Below the pieces are notes generated by a model. That model was given only the letters and a program-made list of their open reading frames with translations. It made no database searches and was not told the DNA's origin. A DNA stretch of 64,000 nt from Akkermansiaceae bacterium (lineage in GTDB: Bacteria; Verrucomicrobiota; Verrucomicrobiia; Verrucomicrobiales; Akkermansiaceae), in assembly GCA_023301765.1 (NCBI GenBank), contig JALZUC010000013.1, positions 1 to 64,000 of the forward strand. The letters are read 5' to 3'. This document shows positions 32,853-38,402 of the stretch, piece by piece; the first letter of the stretch is position 1, and each line of letters starts with the position of its first letter. The translations under genes were made by a program, and so were the position numbers.

Positions 32853-33083
32853 ATGAGAACTACAATCACCATTGATGATACCCTCTTTGGGAAAGCCGCC
32901 GCCATTACTGGCGATGATAATGCCTCTAGCTTGCTCACTAAAGCACTGGAGATGCTAGTAGCCACTGAGTCTAAAAAGAGAATATTACGTCTCTCCGGCG
33001 GCGCCTCAGACTTTACCATCCCCGGTAGAGACTCCCGCACACTGAGCCACGTGGCAGAAGATCCAGCAGAATACAATAAGTAG
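32853..33083 (+). CDS. vapB: VapB-type antitoxin
   Basis: The 76-aa protein begins MRTTITIDDTLFGKAAAIT, a ribbon-helix-helix DNA-binding start typical of VapB antitoxins, followed by a helix (ASSLLTKALEML). The C-terminal tail (LRLSGGASDFTIPGRDSR) is the sort that wraps the toxin. It ends 2 bp before the toxin gene, in the same direction. The pair should be autoregulated by the antitoxin-toxin complex at the promoter just upstream, where a short CATC-AAT-GATG dyad is seen at 32829-32839. Confidence 0.85.
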   Translation: MRTTITIDDTLFGKAAAITGDDNASSLLTKALEMLVATESKKRILRLSGGASDFTIPGRDSRTLSHVAEDPAEYNK

Positions 33084-33085
33084 GC

Positions 33086-33460
33086 ATGAACGTACTCGCA
33101 GATACTAACATCTGGTGCCTCTTTTTCAGGTCTGGTCAGTCCACACTCAGCTCTCTCATCGAGTATGACTTTCTATCCACACACCCCCTCGTCATCGGTG
33201 AACTATCCGTAGGGAATTTACCTAAACGAAGGCAGACACTGTTAGACTTTAAGGCTTTCCCCTCTGTGCGCCCTGCTAGCTTTACAGAAACGCATCATTT
33301 TATAGAAAATAACCAGCTCTACGGAAAAGGACTCCAGTGGAATGACCTTAACATCCTTGCCAGTGTAGTGGCTAGTAGTGATACCCTATTATGGACTGAG
33401 GATAAGCGCCTAGCCGCTGTGGCAGAGCAATTTGATATCGCCTACACACCAGACTATTAA
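33086..33460 (+). CDS. vapC: VapC-type PIN-domain toxin
   Basis: This 124-aa PIN-domain ribonuclease is predicted to cleave RNA (often initiator tRNA or rRNA) when freed from VapB. The conserved acidic residues are present: LADTNIWCLFF (Asp6), VIGELSVGNLP (Glu), LQWNDLNILASVV (Asp) and LWTEDKRLAAVA (Asp). The active site therefore looks intact. It starts 3 bp after the vapB stop. Its 3' end faces the end of an epimerase gene just 2 bp away. Confidence 0.88.
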   Translation: MNVLADTNIWCLFFRSGQSTLSSLIEYDFLSTHPLVIGELSVGNLPKRRQTLLDFKAFPSVRPASFTETHHFIENNQLYGKGLQWNDLNILASVVASSDTLLWTEDKRLAAVAEQFDIAYTPDY

Positions 33461-33462
33461 AC

Positions 33463-34365
33463 CTACCACTCTGCGGGGCGCATTTTTTCATGGAGGAAAA
33501 CAAAGCCACTCTCGAGCAGTTTCTCCGGAGCCGCAGCGCAGCTGTCTAAGATAAGCTCAGGTGCCGTGCCAATAATAAATGTGCCAAGCCGCACAGCTAA
33601 CTCAGGTGCAGGAAGCCCTATAGGCATACCTACATATTTTCTAAAACGGCTCATCATCTCAGCATTACTAACAGTCTCAGGTGCAGCCATATTTACTGGG
33701 CCTATTAAAGTTTCATTCTTTATAATATGATCAATCACTCTTGGGACATCAGTGATGTGAACCCAGCTTACCATTTGTTTACCACTAGCCACTTTTCCAC
33801 CGAGGCCGATCTTTGCTAACATCGAAAGCACACGGTAAGGGTTCCCCTTTTCATCCGCCACTACCATGGCAGTTCGAAGAGCTACTCTGCGCACGCTTTC
33901 TGGAATATCAGCATCAAAGAGCGCCGCCTCCCACTTCTGCGCCACATCAGCTATAAAACCCTCACCATGTGCCCCAGATTCGTTCTGCGGTTCGGTAGAT
34001 ACTGTATCATAGATTCCTGAGCCACTGCCATTGATCCATAGGCTCGGTGGGTTTTCACTCGCAGCAATTGCACGGCCTAACAGTTCCGTGCTTTGTACTC
34101 TGGACTCAAGGATTTGCTTTTTATTTTCATCGTTATGCCGGCAGTTAATAGAACGTCCCACCATATTGATAATTACATCACTATCATCTAGCACAGAGAC
34201 CCACTCACCTAGCGATTGCCCATCCCAGTGGATGTAGCGGCACGCATCATGTAGCCCTTCCTCTCGCCTAGCCAGACCAGATACAGCCCACCCCTGCTCA
34301 GAGAAATACTCAGTAATATGCCGTGCCAAAAATCCATTAGCACCGGCGATTAGCAATTTTTTCAT
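33463..34365 (-). CDS. TIGR01777-family NAD-dependent epimerase-like protein (copy 1)
   Basis: This 300-aa Rossmann-fold protein is of the SDR epimerase/YfcH type (TIGR01777, including SulA-like proteins). The cofactor motif is LLIAGANGFLARHITEYF. CRYIHWDGQSLGEW and VIINMVGRSINCR, then SGKQMVSWVHITDVPRVIDH, are family hallmarks. The substrate is unknown. It is a close tandem paralogue of the next gene upstream. The ATG giving MKKLLIAGANG matches the neighbour's start. A longer upstream start is rejected. It is the last gene of the DCC-membrane-SDR-SDR operon. Confidence 0.87.
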   Translation of the reverse strand: MKKLLIAGANGFLARHITEYFSEQGWAVSGLARREEGLHDACRYIHWDGQSLGEWVSVLDDSDVIINMVGRSINCRHNDENKKQILESRVQSTELLGRAIAASENPPSLWINGSGSGIYDTVSTEPQNESGAHGEGFIADVAQKWEAALFDADIPESVRRVALRTAMVVADEKGNPYRVLSMLAKIGLGGKVASGKQMVSWVHITDVPRVIDHIIKNETLIGPVNMAAPETVSNAEMMSRFRKYVGMPIGLPAPELAVRLGTFIIGTAPELILDSCAAAPEKLLESGFVFLHEKMRPAEW

Positions 34366-34402
34366 AGTCAAAATGATATCTAGATTCTGGTGGAATGATA
34401 GT

Positions 34403-35311
34403 TCATTTACTCCAGTTCCACGGTTCCATTTCAGGATGCTTAAAAACAAACCCGTGCTCTTGTAATCTGGTAGGCACCACCCATCGGCTTTTTAGAATTA
34501 ATTCTGTCTCAGTGCGTAGTAGAAAGGCACCTATTTCAGCCATCCACTTAGTAGCAGGTAATCCCACTGGCATACCCACGTGTTTGCGGAACCTTCTCAT
34601 AATCTCACTATTACATAGAGGTTCAGGTGCCGTTACATTGATCGGGCCTGATATCTCATCGTGCTCCATTAACCACTGCACAGATCTACAAAAATCATCC
34701 ACATGAATCCAGCTCACCATCTGCTTCCCGCTACCCACTTTCCCACCTAACCCAAAGCGTGCTAGGTTAGAGAGATAGCTAAAAACAGTACCCGGCTCAT
34801 CTACCAGCACCATCGCTGTGCGGATAGCTACCTTACGCACAACGCCCGGAACATTAGCGCTATAGAAAGCCTCCTCCCATGCTGTGCCTACTCCCACAGA
34901 GAAACCTTCCCCAATTTCCCCAGTATCACTCTGAGGCTTATCTTCAGCATGACGGTATATAGTGGCTGTGCTTGAGTTTATCCACAGCTCTGGCGGATGC
35001 GCACACTGAGCAATGGCCTCACCAAGCACCCGCGTGCTGTTAATACGAGAGTCCATAATCATGCGCTTATTCTCTGCATTGTATCTGCAGTTTACCGTTC
35101 TTCCTGCGAGATTAATCAGAGCATCACAGCCCTCTATTTCCTCAGCCCATGTTCCCAGAGTCTCGCCATCCCAGTGCACATAACGGCACTGTGAGTCCAT
35201 TCCCTTTTGATGCCGAGCAAGACCAACAATAGTCCAGCCCTGTTCCGCAAAATACCGAGTAAGATAACGTGCTAAAAACCCATTAGCACCAGCAATTATT
35301 AGTTTTTTCAT
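34403..35311 (-). CDS. TIGR01777-family NAD-dependent epimerase-like protein (copy 2)
   Basis: At 302 aa it has the same family and layout as the downstream gene: LIIAGANGFLARYLTRYF at the N-terminus, CRYVHWDGETLGTW near residue 46, ALINLAGRTVNCRYNAENKR near 68, and SGKQMVSWIHVDDFCRSV near 205. The two copies share whole motifs in the same order, which points to tandem duplication. A gap of 37 bp separates them. Function is unknown. Homologues in other bacteria are often beside photolyase or SRPBCC genes, which also occur in this window. Confidence 0.87.
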   Translation of the reverse strand: MKKLIIAGANGFLARYLTRYFAEQGWTIVGLARHQKGMDSQCRYVHWDGETLGTWAEEIEGCDALINLAGRTVNCRYNAENKRMIMDSRINSTRVLGEAIAQCAHPPELWINSSTATIYRHAEDKPQSDTGEIGEGFSVGVGTAWEEAFYSANVPGVVRKVAIRTAMVLVDEPGTVFSYLSNLARFGLGGKVGSGKQMVSWIHVDDFCRSVQWLMEHDEISGPINVTAPEPLCNSEIMRRFRKHVGMPVGLPATKWMAEIGAFLLRTETELILKSRWVVPTRLQEHGFVFKHPEMEPWNWSK

Positions 35312-35336: not shown

Positions 35337-35747
35337 TTAATCAGGGTTACCTTCAGCCGCTTTATTCCAGCCAGCGTAGGCAGGTGGAGTAGGAGGCTGA
35401 GCTCTATCATGCTTTTTCCCAATGCGGGCAAAGATGTAGATGTTGAAGAAGTGCATGGCACCCAGAACGAGCATCACAACACCTAGCTTGGCACTGAGTG
35501 CCTCAAAGACACCATTAATGTCAGGCACGAGACTATTGAGCTTTAGATACAGTAACACAAAACCGATGTTTACGAGGTAGAAGCCCACCACTAACAGGTG
35601 GTTCACACTATCTGCCACGGTTTCATCGTTTTTCATGCTTTTGATTAGGAATACCCTACCGTTCTTGTGCAGTGTTCTGGCCACCCATATGGTGAGCGGA
35701 ACGGCGATTAAGAGATAGGCTATATAGGTAATAACGGTATTATTCAT
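35337..35747 (-). CDS. Integral membrane protein of the DCC operon
   Basis: The 136-aa protein has about three TM helices (residues 5-22, 47-67, 88-112) separated by a polar loop with SMKNDETVADSVN, and a Pro-rich cytosolic tail. It sits between the DCC gene (33 bp upstream) and the epimerase genes (25 bp downstream), all on the minus strand, and so is part of one operon. I do not recognise the family with certainty. Confidence 0.7.
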   Translation of the reverse strand: MNNTVITYIAYLLIAVPLTIWVARTLHKNGRVFLIKSMKNDETVADSVNHLLVVGFYLVNIGFVLLYLKLNSLVPDINGVFEALSAKLGVVMLVLGAMHFFNIYIFARIGKKHDRAQPPTPPAYAGWNKAAEGNPD

Positions 35748-35780: not shown

Positions 35781-36248
35781 TTAGATAAATCCATCAGGGA
35801 TATGGCCGCAGGTGCCTAGACATTCCTCCCCTGGCATACGGTGAAGTTCAGCCGCTACTTCACGGTCTTTTTTACGGAAGAATACCTTGCTGAACTTGTG
35901 CCTACGGGCAGCAAGGGCGTGGCATGTCTTTTCCGCAAACGGCAGCAGGGCTGGGCTGGCGATGCGGCGCGCTATCCCCTGATATTTCGTGCAGCTAAGC
36001 AGACAGAGCACCCAGCCCTCTGCACCCCTGTAAAGCTCCTGATTATCTGTGCGGATAATCATTTCACGCTCTGGCTCCAGAGCATTTATACCGGGGAACC
36101 ACTCTTCGGCCTCAGGGTCTTGATAGGCTATAAAACGCACTGGAAATGCACGCTCCTGCTCATTAACCCACTCATGGAAGGTGCAGCACATACCACAGCG
36201 GCCATCATAGTAGACTTCGATGTATTGGATATTATTTGGTATTTTCAT
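35781..36248 (-). CDS. DCC-family thiol-disulfide oxidoreductase (DUF393)
   Basis: The 155-aa thioredoxin-like protein begins with the diagnostic motif YYDGRCGMCCTFHEWV near residue 13, with the CxxC-type pair right after the Asp-Gly. Mid-protein FIAYQDPEAEEWFPG also fits the DCC family. It is probably a redox protein, though no substrate is known. It is the first gene of the operon, with an operator palindrome 21-38 bp upstream of its start. The C-terminus has extra Cys residues (EECLGTCGHIPDG). Confidence 0.86.
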   Translation of the reverse strand: MKIPNNIQYIEVYYDGRCGMCCTFHEWVNEQERAFPVRFIAYQDPEAEEWFPGINALEPEREMIIRTDNQELYRGAEGWVLCLLSCTKYQGIARRIASPALLPFAEKTCHALAARRHKFSKVFFRKKDREVAAELHRMPGEECLGTCGHIPDGFI

Positions 36249-36268
36249 AGTATTAGTTTAGTTAGTAT

Positions 36269-36286
36269 TTTCAGGAATTATTGAAA
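36269..36286. promoter_or_regulatory. Operator upstream of DCC operon
   Basis: TTTCAGGAATTATTGAAA is an 18-bp near-palindrome differing by two bases from the perfect palindrome at 36881-36898. It lies 21-38 bp before the DCC start, so a bound repressor would block transcription. It is most simply the second binding site of the adjacent GbsR/MarR-type regulator. Confidence 0.6.
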
Positions 36287-36331
36287 GTTTGATTTGCGAG
36301 TTATTAGATGCTTACTATTGATTGCGGCGTT

Positions 36332-36877
36332 TTAACCTAAAACCTTAGCGGCAATCTTCATGGCAGGGCCATACGAGAGCTGGCCTACTTTACCGCCTAT
36401 ATTACGCGCAAAGCTGACAAACTGTTCCAGCTCTTTGATCTGGTCGCGAAACGCCTCGGCCTCAGTGCCCTTGAGATCTTTTGTCTCCGCCTGACAGTCA
36501 CGGAGTATCTCTAACGCAGGGTCTATCTCACGGCGCTGGCGTTCACGTAGGATGATGGTGAAGATCTTCCACACGTCCTTTTCAGCCTCAAAGAACTCCT
36601 TGCGCTCCCCTTTTTTTACAATAATACGAACGAGCCCCCAGCTAACGAGTTCCTTAAGGTTCGTGTGTGCATTTCCTCGACTGATATCAAGAGTCTCCAT
36701 CACCTCATCCGTACTAAGTGCGGTGGTTCCAGTCATAAGAAGGGCATGGATCTGTGCCATAGTACGGTTAATCCCCCATTGGCTGCCAAAGGCTCCCCAC
36801 TGCGCTATGAATCCATCACGGACTTCATTCAGTCTCGCTATCTGTCCTTCATTCGGCTTTGCAGTCTCGCTCTTCAT
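36332..36877 (-). CDS. GbsR/MarR-type transcriptional regulator
   Basis: The 181-aa winged-helix protein starts MKSETAKPNEGQIARLNEVRDGF. The DNA-binding region includes GINRTMAQIHALLMTG, STDEVMETLDISRGNAHTNLKELVSWGLV and RIIVKKGERKEFFEAEKDVW, typical of GbsR-like MarR-family regulators. The C-terminal half is a helical dimerisation or ligand domain. Between it and the operon it precedes lie 83 bp holding an operator. A second, perfect operator overlaps its own start, implying autoregulation. GbsR proteins often sense choline or related osmolytes, but no choline genes are near, so the ligand here is unknown. Confidence 0.85.
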   Translation of the reverse strand: MKSETAKPNEGQIARLNEVRDGFIAQWGAFGSQWGINRTMAQIHALLMTGTTALSTDEVMETLDISRGNAHTNLKELVSWGLVRIIVKKGERKEFFEAEKDVWKIFTIILRERQRREIDPALEILRDCQAETKDLKGTEAEAFRDQIKELEQFVSFARNIGGKVGQLSYGPAMKIAAKVLG

Positions 36878-36880
36878 ATT

Positions 36881-36903
36881 TTTCAGTAATTACTGAAAGT
36901 ATA
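36881..36903 (-). promoter_or_regulatory. Autoregulatory operator and -10 box of the GbsR-type gene
   Basis: The perfect 18-bp palindrome TTTCAGTAATTACTGAAA (36881-36898) lies 4 bp upstream of the regulator's start. On the minus strand a -10 box TATACT (36903-36898) touches it, so the expected transcription start falls inside the palindrome. Regulator binding would block its own transcription. Confidence 0.7.
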
Positions 36904-36995
36904 GATTATTTGCAAGACTATTTTGAAATATTCTTTCGAACTATGAATCTATGAGCACATGAGTATACTCAGAGGCTAAGATTTTATAACCTTCT

Positions 36996-38402
36996 ATGAC
37001 ACCCCTTACCCTTATCTGTTTCTACCTCAGTGTATGCCTGCTCACCCACGCAGGTGAGCTAAAACACCAGACGATAGCTAATGATAATCCAGAAATCACT
37101 CTGACTAAGTTTGCCTATGGTTCCTGTTGGAAGTCCACGCACTCACAGAAGCATTGGCCGGTAATATTGGAAAACAAACCTCAGCTCTGGATTTGGTTAG
37201 GCGATAATATATATGGCGATACGTCAGATATGGATCTATTAAAGAAAAAATATAACCTGTTAGGCGCTACTGAGGGATATCAAAATCTAGCGGAATCCTG
37301 CCCGATTCTCGCCACCTGGGACGATCACGACTACGGAGCAAATGATGCTGGGGCAGACTTCTCCATGAAAAAGGAATCTCAGAAGATTTTTCTCGAGTTT
37401 TTTAACGAACGCCCTGACAGCGCTCGGAATAAACGCGAAGGAGTCTATTCGAGTTACTATTTCGGCCCAGCTGAAAAACGTGTGCAGGTGATCCTTTTAG
37501 ATACGCGCTACTTCAGATCACATCTCAAGAAAGGTGAAGGTAAACCGCCCTATAAGCGGATGGGGAAATGGATAGCTGATAGCTCCCCCACTACTACCCT
37601 CCTGGGTGATGCTCAGTGGCGGTGGTTAGAGAGAGAGCTACATCAGCCAGCCAAAGTTCGCTTCATCGCCACTAGCATTCAGTTTTCAGTCCCTCATCAC
37701 GGTCATGAAACGTGGGCTAACATGCCACTGGAAAAACAACGTATGATTGATCTCATTAAAAAAACCAAAGCTGAAGGTGTAGTCTTTCTCTCCGGAGATA
37801 TTCACTCCTCCGAACTATGTATCACAGAACCTCAGGGCTGCTACCCACTCGTGGACTTCACCAGCAGCTCCCTAAACGTACCTCTCGGCACGTCCAACAC
37901 CCACCAACGCACAGGCCCAGCCTACGGCGGTGCTAATTTTGGCCTCGTCCAGATTGATTGGGCTGCGGTAGACCCTGTCGTCAGTATCTCTACTAAGGAT
38001 AACCAAAACCAAACACGCCTCCACCACTCTCTACATCTCTCTGACCTTACCTTCTCTGAGAAAAACCTCATCCCTCAGACATCCATAGAGAATTTTGCCC
38101 GTAAATGGCAGACATTCTATGGTGCGATGACCATTAAAAAAGATGCCGACGGTAAATGGCATGCCAGCTGTGCTGAGCGTAATTTAAAACTAAGACCAAG
38201 TGCCACAGGGCTCAGCGGCACATGGCAGGGAGTAAACAGCAGCGGTAAGGTATCCTTTCAACTATCACGCAATGGTCGGTTTCTGAGAGGTAAGCACTCG
38301 GAAGGTGCCCTCCCCCTGCAGCTTGATTGGGCGGCATGGCAACCTGATTGGGAAACTCACTTCAAGCGCGATGACTACCACCTGAGGAAAAAGAAAAAAT
38401 AG
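36996..38402 (+). CDS. Secreted PhoD-like alkaline phosphatase
   Basis: The 468-aa protein has a signal peptide (MTPLTLICFYLSVCLLTHAG) and a PhoD-type metallophosphatase domain. Visible motifs are FAYGSCWKS, WIWLGDNIYGDTSDMD, ATWDDHDYGANDAG (metal-binding Asp/His), QVILLDTRYFRS and FLSGDIHSSEL near the C-terminal part of the domain. It is predicted to release phosphate from phosphoesters outside the cytoplasm, possibly for phosphate scavenging. The last 100 residues (YGAMTIKKDADGKWH onward) form an added domain. It is divergent from the regulator gene, with the regulator's operator in the shared region. No pho box was recognised. Confidence 0.85.
   Translation: MTPLTLICFYLSVCLLTHAGELKHQTIANDNPEITLTKFAYGSCWKSTHSQKHWPVILENKPQLWIWLGDNIYGDTSDMDLLKKKYNLLGATEGYQNLAESCPILATWDDHDYGANDAGADFSMKKESQKIFLEFFNERPDSARNKREGVYSSYYFGPAEKRVQVILLDTRYFRSHLKKGEGKPPYKRMGKWIADSSPTTTLLGDAQWRWLERELHQPAKVRFIATSIQFSVPHHGHETWANMPLEKQRMIDLIKKTKAEGVVFLSGDIHSSELCITEPQGCYPLVDFTSSSLNVPLGTSNTHQRTGPAYGGANFGLVQIDWAAVDPVVSISTKDNQNQTRLHHSLHLSDLTFSEKNLIPQTSIENFARKWQTFYGAMTIKKDADGKWHASCAERNLKLRPSATGLSGTWQGVNSSGKVSFQLSRNGRFLRGKHSEGALPLQLDWAAWQPDWETHFKRDDYHLRKKKK

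Follow-up and report, generated by a model that had tools for sequence, protein, structure and literature searches.

GbsR and OpcR of Bacillus subtilis belong to a MarR subfamily that also includes the regulator described here. GbsR and OpcR control choline and osmoprotectant genes from A/T-rich operators whose spacers differ from those found in this study, and GbsR functions as a roadblock positioned downstream of the transcription start site (PMC7396694). For the osmostress group of GbsR proteins, an aromatic cage accommodating a methylated ligand has been described in a survey which distinguishes four neighbourhood classes and lists 73 proteins without assigned function (PMC6207618). CydE of Alishewanella sp. 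WH16-1 is a GbsR-type repressor of cydAB (cytochrome bd); it is derepressed by sulfate, and its site footprinted with DNase I reads TATTTCAGAAATTTCTGAAAGTTCA (PMC6096048). CioR of Chromobacterium violaceum likewise controls cytochrome bd (cioAB), and its binding to DNA is disrupted by iron and zinc and reportedly not restored by DTT (PMC11837568). In the open-licence literature, we found no description of a GbsR system that is linked to DCC/TIGR01777 genes or that stems from Verrucomicrobiota.

The locus analysed here lies on a stretch of 64,000 nt at the start of contig JALZUC010000013.1 of an Akkermansiaceae bacterium (referred to as the window) and comprises the following features:

36332..36877, minus strand: GbsR/MarR-type regulator of 181 aa with a single cysteine (Cys128)
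35781..36248, minus strand: protein of the DCC1-like thiol-disulfide oxidoreductase family, 155 aa (PF04134, 43.8 bits, above the cut-off of 27.8)
35337..35747, minus strand: small protein, 136 aa, probably membrane, three predicted long helices
34403..35311, minus strand: TIGR01777 family oxidoreductase, first copy (242.5 bits, above the cut-off of 207.35)
33463..34365, minus strand: TIGR01777 family oxidoreductase, second copy (222 bits, above the cut-off of 207.35)
36881..36898, no strand assigned: predicted operator 1, TTTCAGTAATTACTGAAA, a perfect palindrome of 18 bp located 3 nt upstream of the start codon of the regulator gene
36269..36286, no strand assigned: predicted operator 2, TTTCAGGAATTATTGAAA, two mismatches to operator 1, located 20 nt upstream of the start codon of the DCC gene
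36910..36915, minus strand: TTGCAA, candidate -35 element for transcription of the regulator gene, at a distance of 17 nt upstream of operator 1

On the minus strand, the genes follow in the order regulator, DCC, small membrane protein, TIGR01777, TIGR01777. The distances between the genes of the DCC operon are 33, 25, and 37 nt; the recomputed ORF coordinates agreed with those of the first-pass annotation. The small protein gave no family match above cut-off in profile searches, and its structure model was poor (mean pLDDT 61) and unsuited to fold search. An MBOAT gene present in the operon of a close relative (L004) is missing from that of the window; no MBOAT homologue was found when the own genome was searched with the L004 query, a search run without a positive control. 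The two TIGR01777 copies (33463-35311, minus strand) are about 52% identical by tblastn, and the tandem also occurs in L004, L005, and L010, indicating an old duplication within the group. Divergent from the regulator, a PhoD-like phosphatase gene (36996-38402, plus strand) starts 98 nt from operator 1; such a gene also adjoins the regulator in L010 and L086. At 32853-33460 (plus strand), a VapB-type antitoxin gene (PF09957) is followed by an ORF of 124 aa which by eye has the look of a PIN-domain toxin and has no Pfam match. The own genome encodes a second DCC-family protein (L256; contig C36, 40288-40632; 55.1 bits), and the own-genome motif scans list no operator match on that contig.

The regulator scored 26.4 bits against Pfam MarR_2, slightly below the cut-off of 27, and 53.3 bits against NCBIfam CudC, far below the cut-off of 218, which leaves it outside the choline/glycine-betaine type. 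Its best solved relative was 1ku9 (Mj223), both by sequence (E 9e-11) and as fold match of a structure model with a mean pLDDT of 91 (E 4.2e-9); the same structure served as modelling template for GbsR (PMC6207618). It is predicted to combine a winged-helix MarR fold like that of Mj223 with a C-terminal helical part, as expected of the GbsR subfamily. None of the four neighbourhood classes of the GbsR survey matches a DCC/TIGR01777 neighbourhood (PMC6207618).

The first-pass annotation had reported a perfect palindrome at the start of the regulator gene, a second copy with two mismatches ahead of the DCC operon, and no further copy in the window. All three observations were reproduced: operators 1 and 2 lie exactly where described and are the sole matches in the window at up to three mismatches, compared with a mean of 0.02 in 100 dinucleotide-preserving shuffles. 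A search of the own genome (2.457 Mb) had been proposed, as the same motif at many unrelated sites would argue against a dedicated operator pair. At up to two mismatches, operators 1 and 2 were again the only matches in this genome, so that no such scatter was seen. Allowing three mismatches yielded one additional site (C63), while a backwards control pattern gave four, and a looser pattern yielded one more, on contig C44 inside the start of an ORF. On a matrix built from the sites of relatives, operators 1 and 2 scored 32.5 and 25.1 bits, respectively. The C44 and C63 sites scored 13.5 and 11.5 bits and were taken as chance matches.

For comparison, we assembled 90 non-redundant loci of verrucomicrobial relatives, including that of the window. 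Cultured relatives in which the locus was detected include Rubritalea marina and Haloferula luteola. A site with at most five mismatches directly precedes the regulator in 88 of these, and the available sequence of the remaining two ends 55 and 2 nt upstream of the regulator. This comparison favours the autorepression that had been suggested from the window. Second operators were identified with a symmetric matrix derived from the 88 sites (score of 12 bits or more, no further than 700 nt past the regulator) and occurred in 58 of the 90 loci, compared with 8 of 1800 first-order resampled stretches; with a threshold of 8 bits, the count was 60, and the 12-bit value was used throughout. The presence of the second operator depended on the position of the first target gene, defined as DCC, membrane protein, or TIGR01777 and located by tblastn. 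Where this gene starts at least 50 nt after the regulator, a second operator was found in 53 of 57 loci, leaving four such loci without one. Where the gap is shorter than 50 nt, the frequency dropped to 2 of 22, one of which (L102) depends on a doubtful assignment of the target, and 3 of the 11 loci with no target seen within 700 nt had a second operator. Hence, the target either has an operator of its own or seems to share the promoter of the regulator. We regard this dependence on the gap as the strongest sign that the operator pair is functional, and it lends weight to the proposed control of the DCC operon.

The association also held at the level of genomes. Among 260 genomes of the family, the motif occurred at up to one mismatch in 112 and the regulator (E 1e-40 or better) in 153; 108 genomes had both, 45 the regulator only, 4 the motif only, and 103 neither (Fisher p 1.5e-30, from counts that ignore common ancestry). 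The 45 regulator-bearing genomes without motif were scored at this strict one-mismatch setting, and among the genomes listed, the backwards control motif was non-zero in one. In ten further loci of the order whose regulators are 52-57% identical (L172-L181), the upstream site is kept at 18.6-25.8 bits. In ten others with 34-40% identity (L182-L191), sites are altered or absent according to the matrix, several reading TTTCTGTCTTAACCGAAA; TIGR01777 is still located downstream in L184, L185, and L187-L189 of this divergent set.

With respect to the promoter of the regulator, the first-pass annotation had placed a -10 box in contact with operator 1. A sequence of this kind exists, as TTCAAA-18-TATACT ends on the first base of operator 1, but it does not exceed chance level (one site found, 1.5 expected in shuffles) and is absent from most relatives, and was therefore rejected as the promoter. 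A TTG located 14-17 nt upstream of the operator is preferred instead, which is kept in 86 of 88 loci and lies at 17 nt in the window. In 74 of the 88 loci, an in-frame start codon follows 0-5 nt after the operator. The conserved TTG together with a spacer of about 17 nt suggests that the -10 element would lie inside operator 1 and that transcription would start near the start codon, making the regulator transcript probably leaderless or nearly so. No TTG is conserved upstream of operator 2, and the promoter at this operator could not be placed. A GAA at positions -4 to -2 before the operator is also conserved among relatives (70, 67, and 71 of 88, respectively), for example in L006 and L060; together with the first half-site, it might make up part of a third, inverted half-site, which is weaker in the window.

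Homologues outside the phylum, in Proteobacteria, were studied on plasmids and megaplasmids, where 14 hand-picked records out of 163 matching ones were opened, the encoded regulators being roughly 34-43% identical. Five of these (L194, L195, L263, L264, and L265) adjoin cydAB or cydDC, and all five have TTTCAG-N6-CTGAAA just upstream (26.7-32.5 bits); in L265, from a Phyllobacterium plasmid, the 18-mer is identical to operator 1. This motif of the CydE/CioR class is likewise present and conserved as a predicted site in the lineage of the window. The first footprinted site of CydE contains TTTCAGAAATTTCTGAAA, which is of the same palindrome class as the window operators, while the second site is unlike the palindrome (PMC6096048). 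The 18-mer in the footprinted site scores 27.5 bits on the matrix of the relatives. The CydE footprint is the experimental anchor for the palindrome, the comparison of CydE with the window regulator being based on operator sites and published description. The neighbourhoods differ, since regulators of the CydE/CioR class adjoin cytochrome bd or cydDC genes whereas the window regulator adjoins DCC, small membrane protein, and TIGR01777 genes; a search of the own genome for cytochrome bd subunit I (PF01654) gave no match.

In five Burkholderiales loci (L192 and L258-L261), the regulator is followed by an NAD-dependent epimerase and a protein of the DUF2269 type, and a DCC relative was seen in three of them (L192, L258, and L259). 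These megaplasmid loci, for which we found no description in the literature searched, resemble the window in having the regulator, an epimerase, a small membrane protein, Cys128, and related palindromes near the regulator. They differ in gene order, in their degenerate palindromes (best 10.7 to 18.7 bits), in the nature of the membrane protein, which is DUF2269, and in L192 by a DoxX_3 domain in the epimerase. DUF4166/SDR genes are the neighbours in L262; the neighbourhoods of L193, L266, and L267 are of other kinds, and these three loci showed no good palindrome site. Judged by sequence, the regulator of the window is most likely a GbsR/MarR-type protein of the CydE-like kind, and the closest characterised relatives having a matching operator are CydE-type repressors and not choline-sensing GbsR.

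Cys128, the only cysteine of the regulator, is positioned in the helix following the DNA-binding domain. It is kept in 88 of the 90 relatives, with 69 of the 90 having it as their sole cysteine, and in 19 of the 20 further loci of the order. Of the plasmid homologues, the five epimerase-linked proteins and L262 have it, whereas the five cyd-linked ones, L193, L266, and L267 do not; the difference between epimerase-linked (5/5) and cyd-linked (0/5) homologues corresponds to a Fisher value of 0.008, from counts ignoring ancestry. OhrR-like one-cysteine MarR regulators release DNA when a conserved reactive cysteine is oxidised. The distribution of Cys128, together with the thiol-disulfide oxidoreductase-like partner, suggests that the signal may be thiol-based and perceived through this residue. 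The designation as a redox operon, made in the first-pass annotation, is tentative and is based on the DCC family name and on Cys128. Cys128 could equally mark one branch of the regulator family. Indeed, the same repressor and operators might respond to a small ion or a metal, with Cys128 being structural or a branch marker, a reading to which we assign slightly less than even odds. It agrees with the derepression of CydE by sulfate (PMC6096048) and with the effects of iron and zinc on CioR, which DTT reportedly did not reverse although the protein has a cysteine, C52, as against Cys128 in the window regulator (PMC11837568). It also agrees with two verrucomicrobial loci (L013 and L034) that lack Cys128 yet retain operator and targets, and with the cyd-linked and other homologues devoid of the residue. 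The strong conservation of Cys128 among the relatives and its confinement to the epimerase-linked side of the comparison with cyd-linked homologues speak against an ion or metal signal.

In some relatives, operator copies also occur by themselves ahead of other genes. Operator copies in relatives were examined in a sample of 88 sites, hand-picked among the matches listed with preference for distal sites, so that the proportions are not unbiased. Gene families were assigned to 74 of these sites: regulator (19), DCC-type (16), polyprenyl synthase (12), a family of membrane proteins containing an SRPBCC-like part (8), the small membrane family of the window (7), SRPBCC (5), TIGR01777, SDR, and DUF2071 (2 each), and a small protein encoded in the operon of the relatives (1). 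The sites were taken in two batches, with 24 of 27 and 50 of 61 assigned; the second is the fairer test because the queries for the target families had been taken from the operon of the window and from the first batch. Most of the extra sites examined in the relatives precede a few recurring gene families. Among the 14 unassigned sites, L146 and L242 show regulator-like starts at contig ends, L222 is a second operator, L249 precedes an SRPBCC-like membrane protein, L145 is linked to a desaturase and L245 to a COQ7-like gene, and L202, L224, L227, and L239 are unclear or chance-like. The remaining four unassigned sites are operator copies between TetR-like and sigma-factor-like genes (L199 and L215, in genomes G059 and G269) and before a sigma-70-type gene (L162 and L250, in G058 and G277); with each type occurring in two genomes, these represent possible further regulatory targets.

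LitR/CarH-type regulators are light-response regulators in other bacteria, and a regulon for light or photo-oxidative stress with such a role is an unlikely explanation of the operator pattern, although some target genes would fit. In genome G034, operators were located ahead of three gene groups, one each: DCC, two small proteins, MBOAT, and TIGR01777; SDR, DUF2867, and the photolyase-related DPRP; and DUF2071, CIA30, and fasciclin. In G266, an operator precedes SDR and then a DPRP-like protein. Photolyase and short-chain dehydrogenase are among the LitR-linked genes of Pseudomonas (PMC9758184). Photolyase-like genes, however, follow an operator in only these two of the genomes examined and are absent from the window operon, and the polyprenyl synthase, DCC, and MBOAT targets fit a membrane-lipid or quinone function equally well. 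That the palindromes belong to another regulator and the neighbouring GbsR-type protein is not the binder is very improbable: the motif occurs in four genomes (G016, G219, G257, and G289) in which no regulator was matched at E 1e-40, but in G219 the site is situated at the end of a contig next to what resembles the start of a regulator, G016 is 69% complete, 88 of the 90 loci have the motif at the start of the regulator, and the related footprinted repressor CydE recognises the same palindrome (PMC6096048).

Taken together, the comparative data point, with a probability of roughly 85%, to a CydE-like GbsR/MarR autorepressor that would control the DCC/membrane protein/TIGR01777 operon through two operators. 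A dimer of the regulator would bind to operator 1, over the predicted promoter of the regulator gene, and to operator 2 in front of the DCC gene. The regulator would thereby repress, rather than activate, its own gene and, separately, the unit of DCC, small membrane protein, and the two TIGR01777 genes. A signal, perhaps a thiol signal acting via Cys128, would release the regulator from the DNA, and both transcripts would be switched on together.

The GbsR type of repressor and the palindrome are known; new is the predicted connection of a CydE-like GbsR protein to a DCC/TIGR01777 operon, with a putative cysteine signature of interest. On a wider and more doubtful reading, which we offer as a tentative possibility, these regulators might form a further GbsR-type class that is marked by one conserved cysteine, controls DCC, epimerase, and membrane-lipid genes in Verrucomicrobiota and Betaproteobacteria, and has its operator in common with the cytochrome-bd class. 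Thiol-reactive or photo-oxidative sensing would occur via Cys128, and some lineages would have extended the control of a single operon to a regulon comprising genes for DCC, SRPBCC, polyprenyl synthase, and DUF2071 as well as photolyase-related ones. The locus provides a testable regulon for poorly understood families, namely DCC, TIGR01777, DUF2071, and a small undescribed membrane family, and the predicted operator can be used for searches across the order. The identical 18-mer in Verrucomicrobiota and on a Phyllobacterium plasmid suggests that one type of repressor has kept its operator while its targets shifted from cytochrome bd to a different set of genes, and Cys128 is one residue that may accompany a change of signal.
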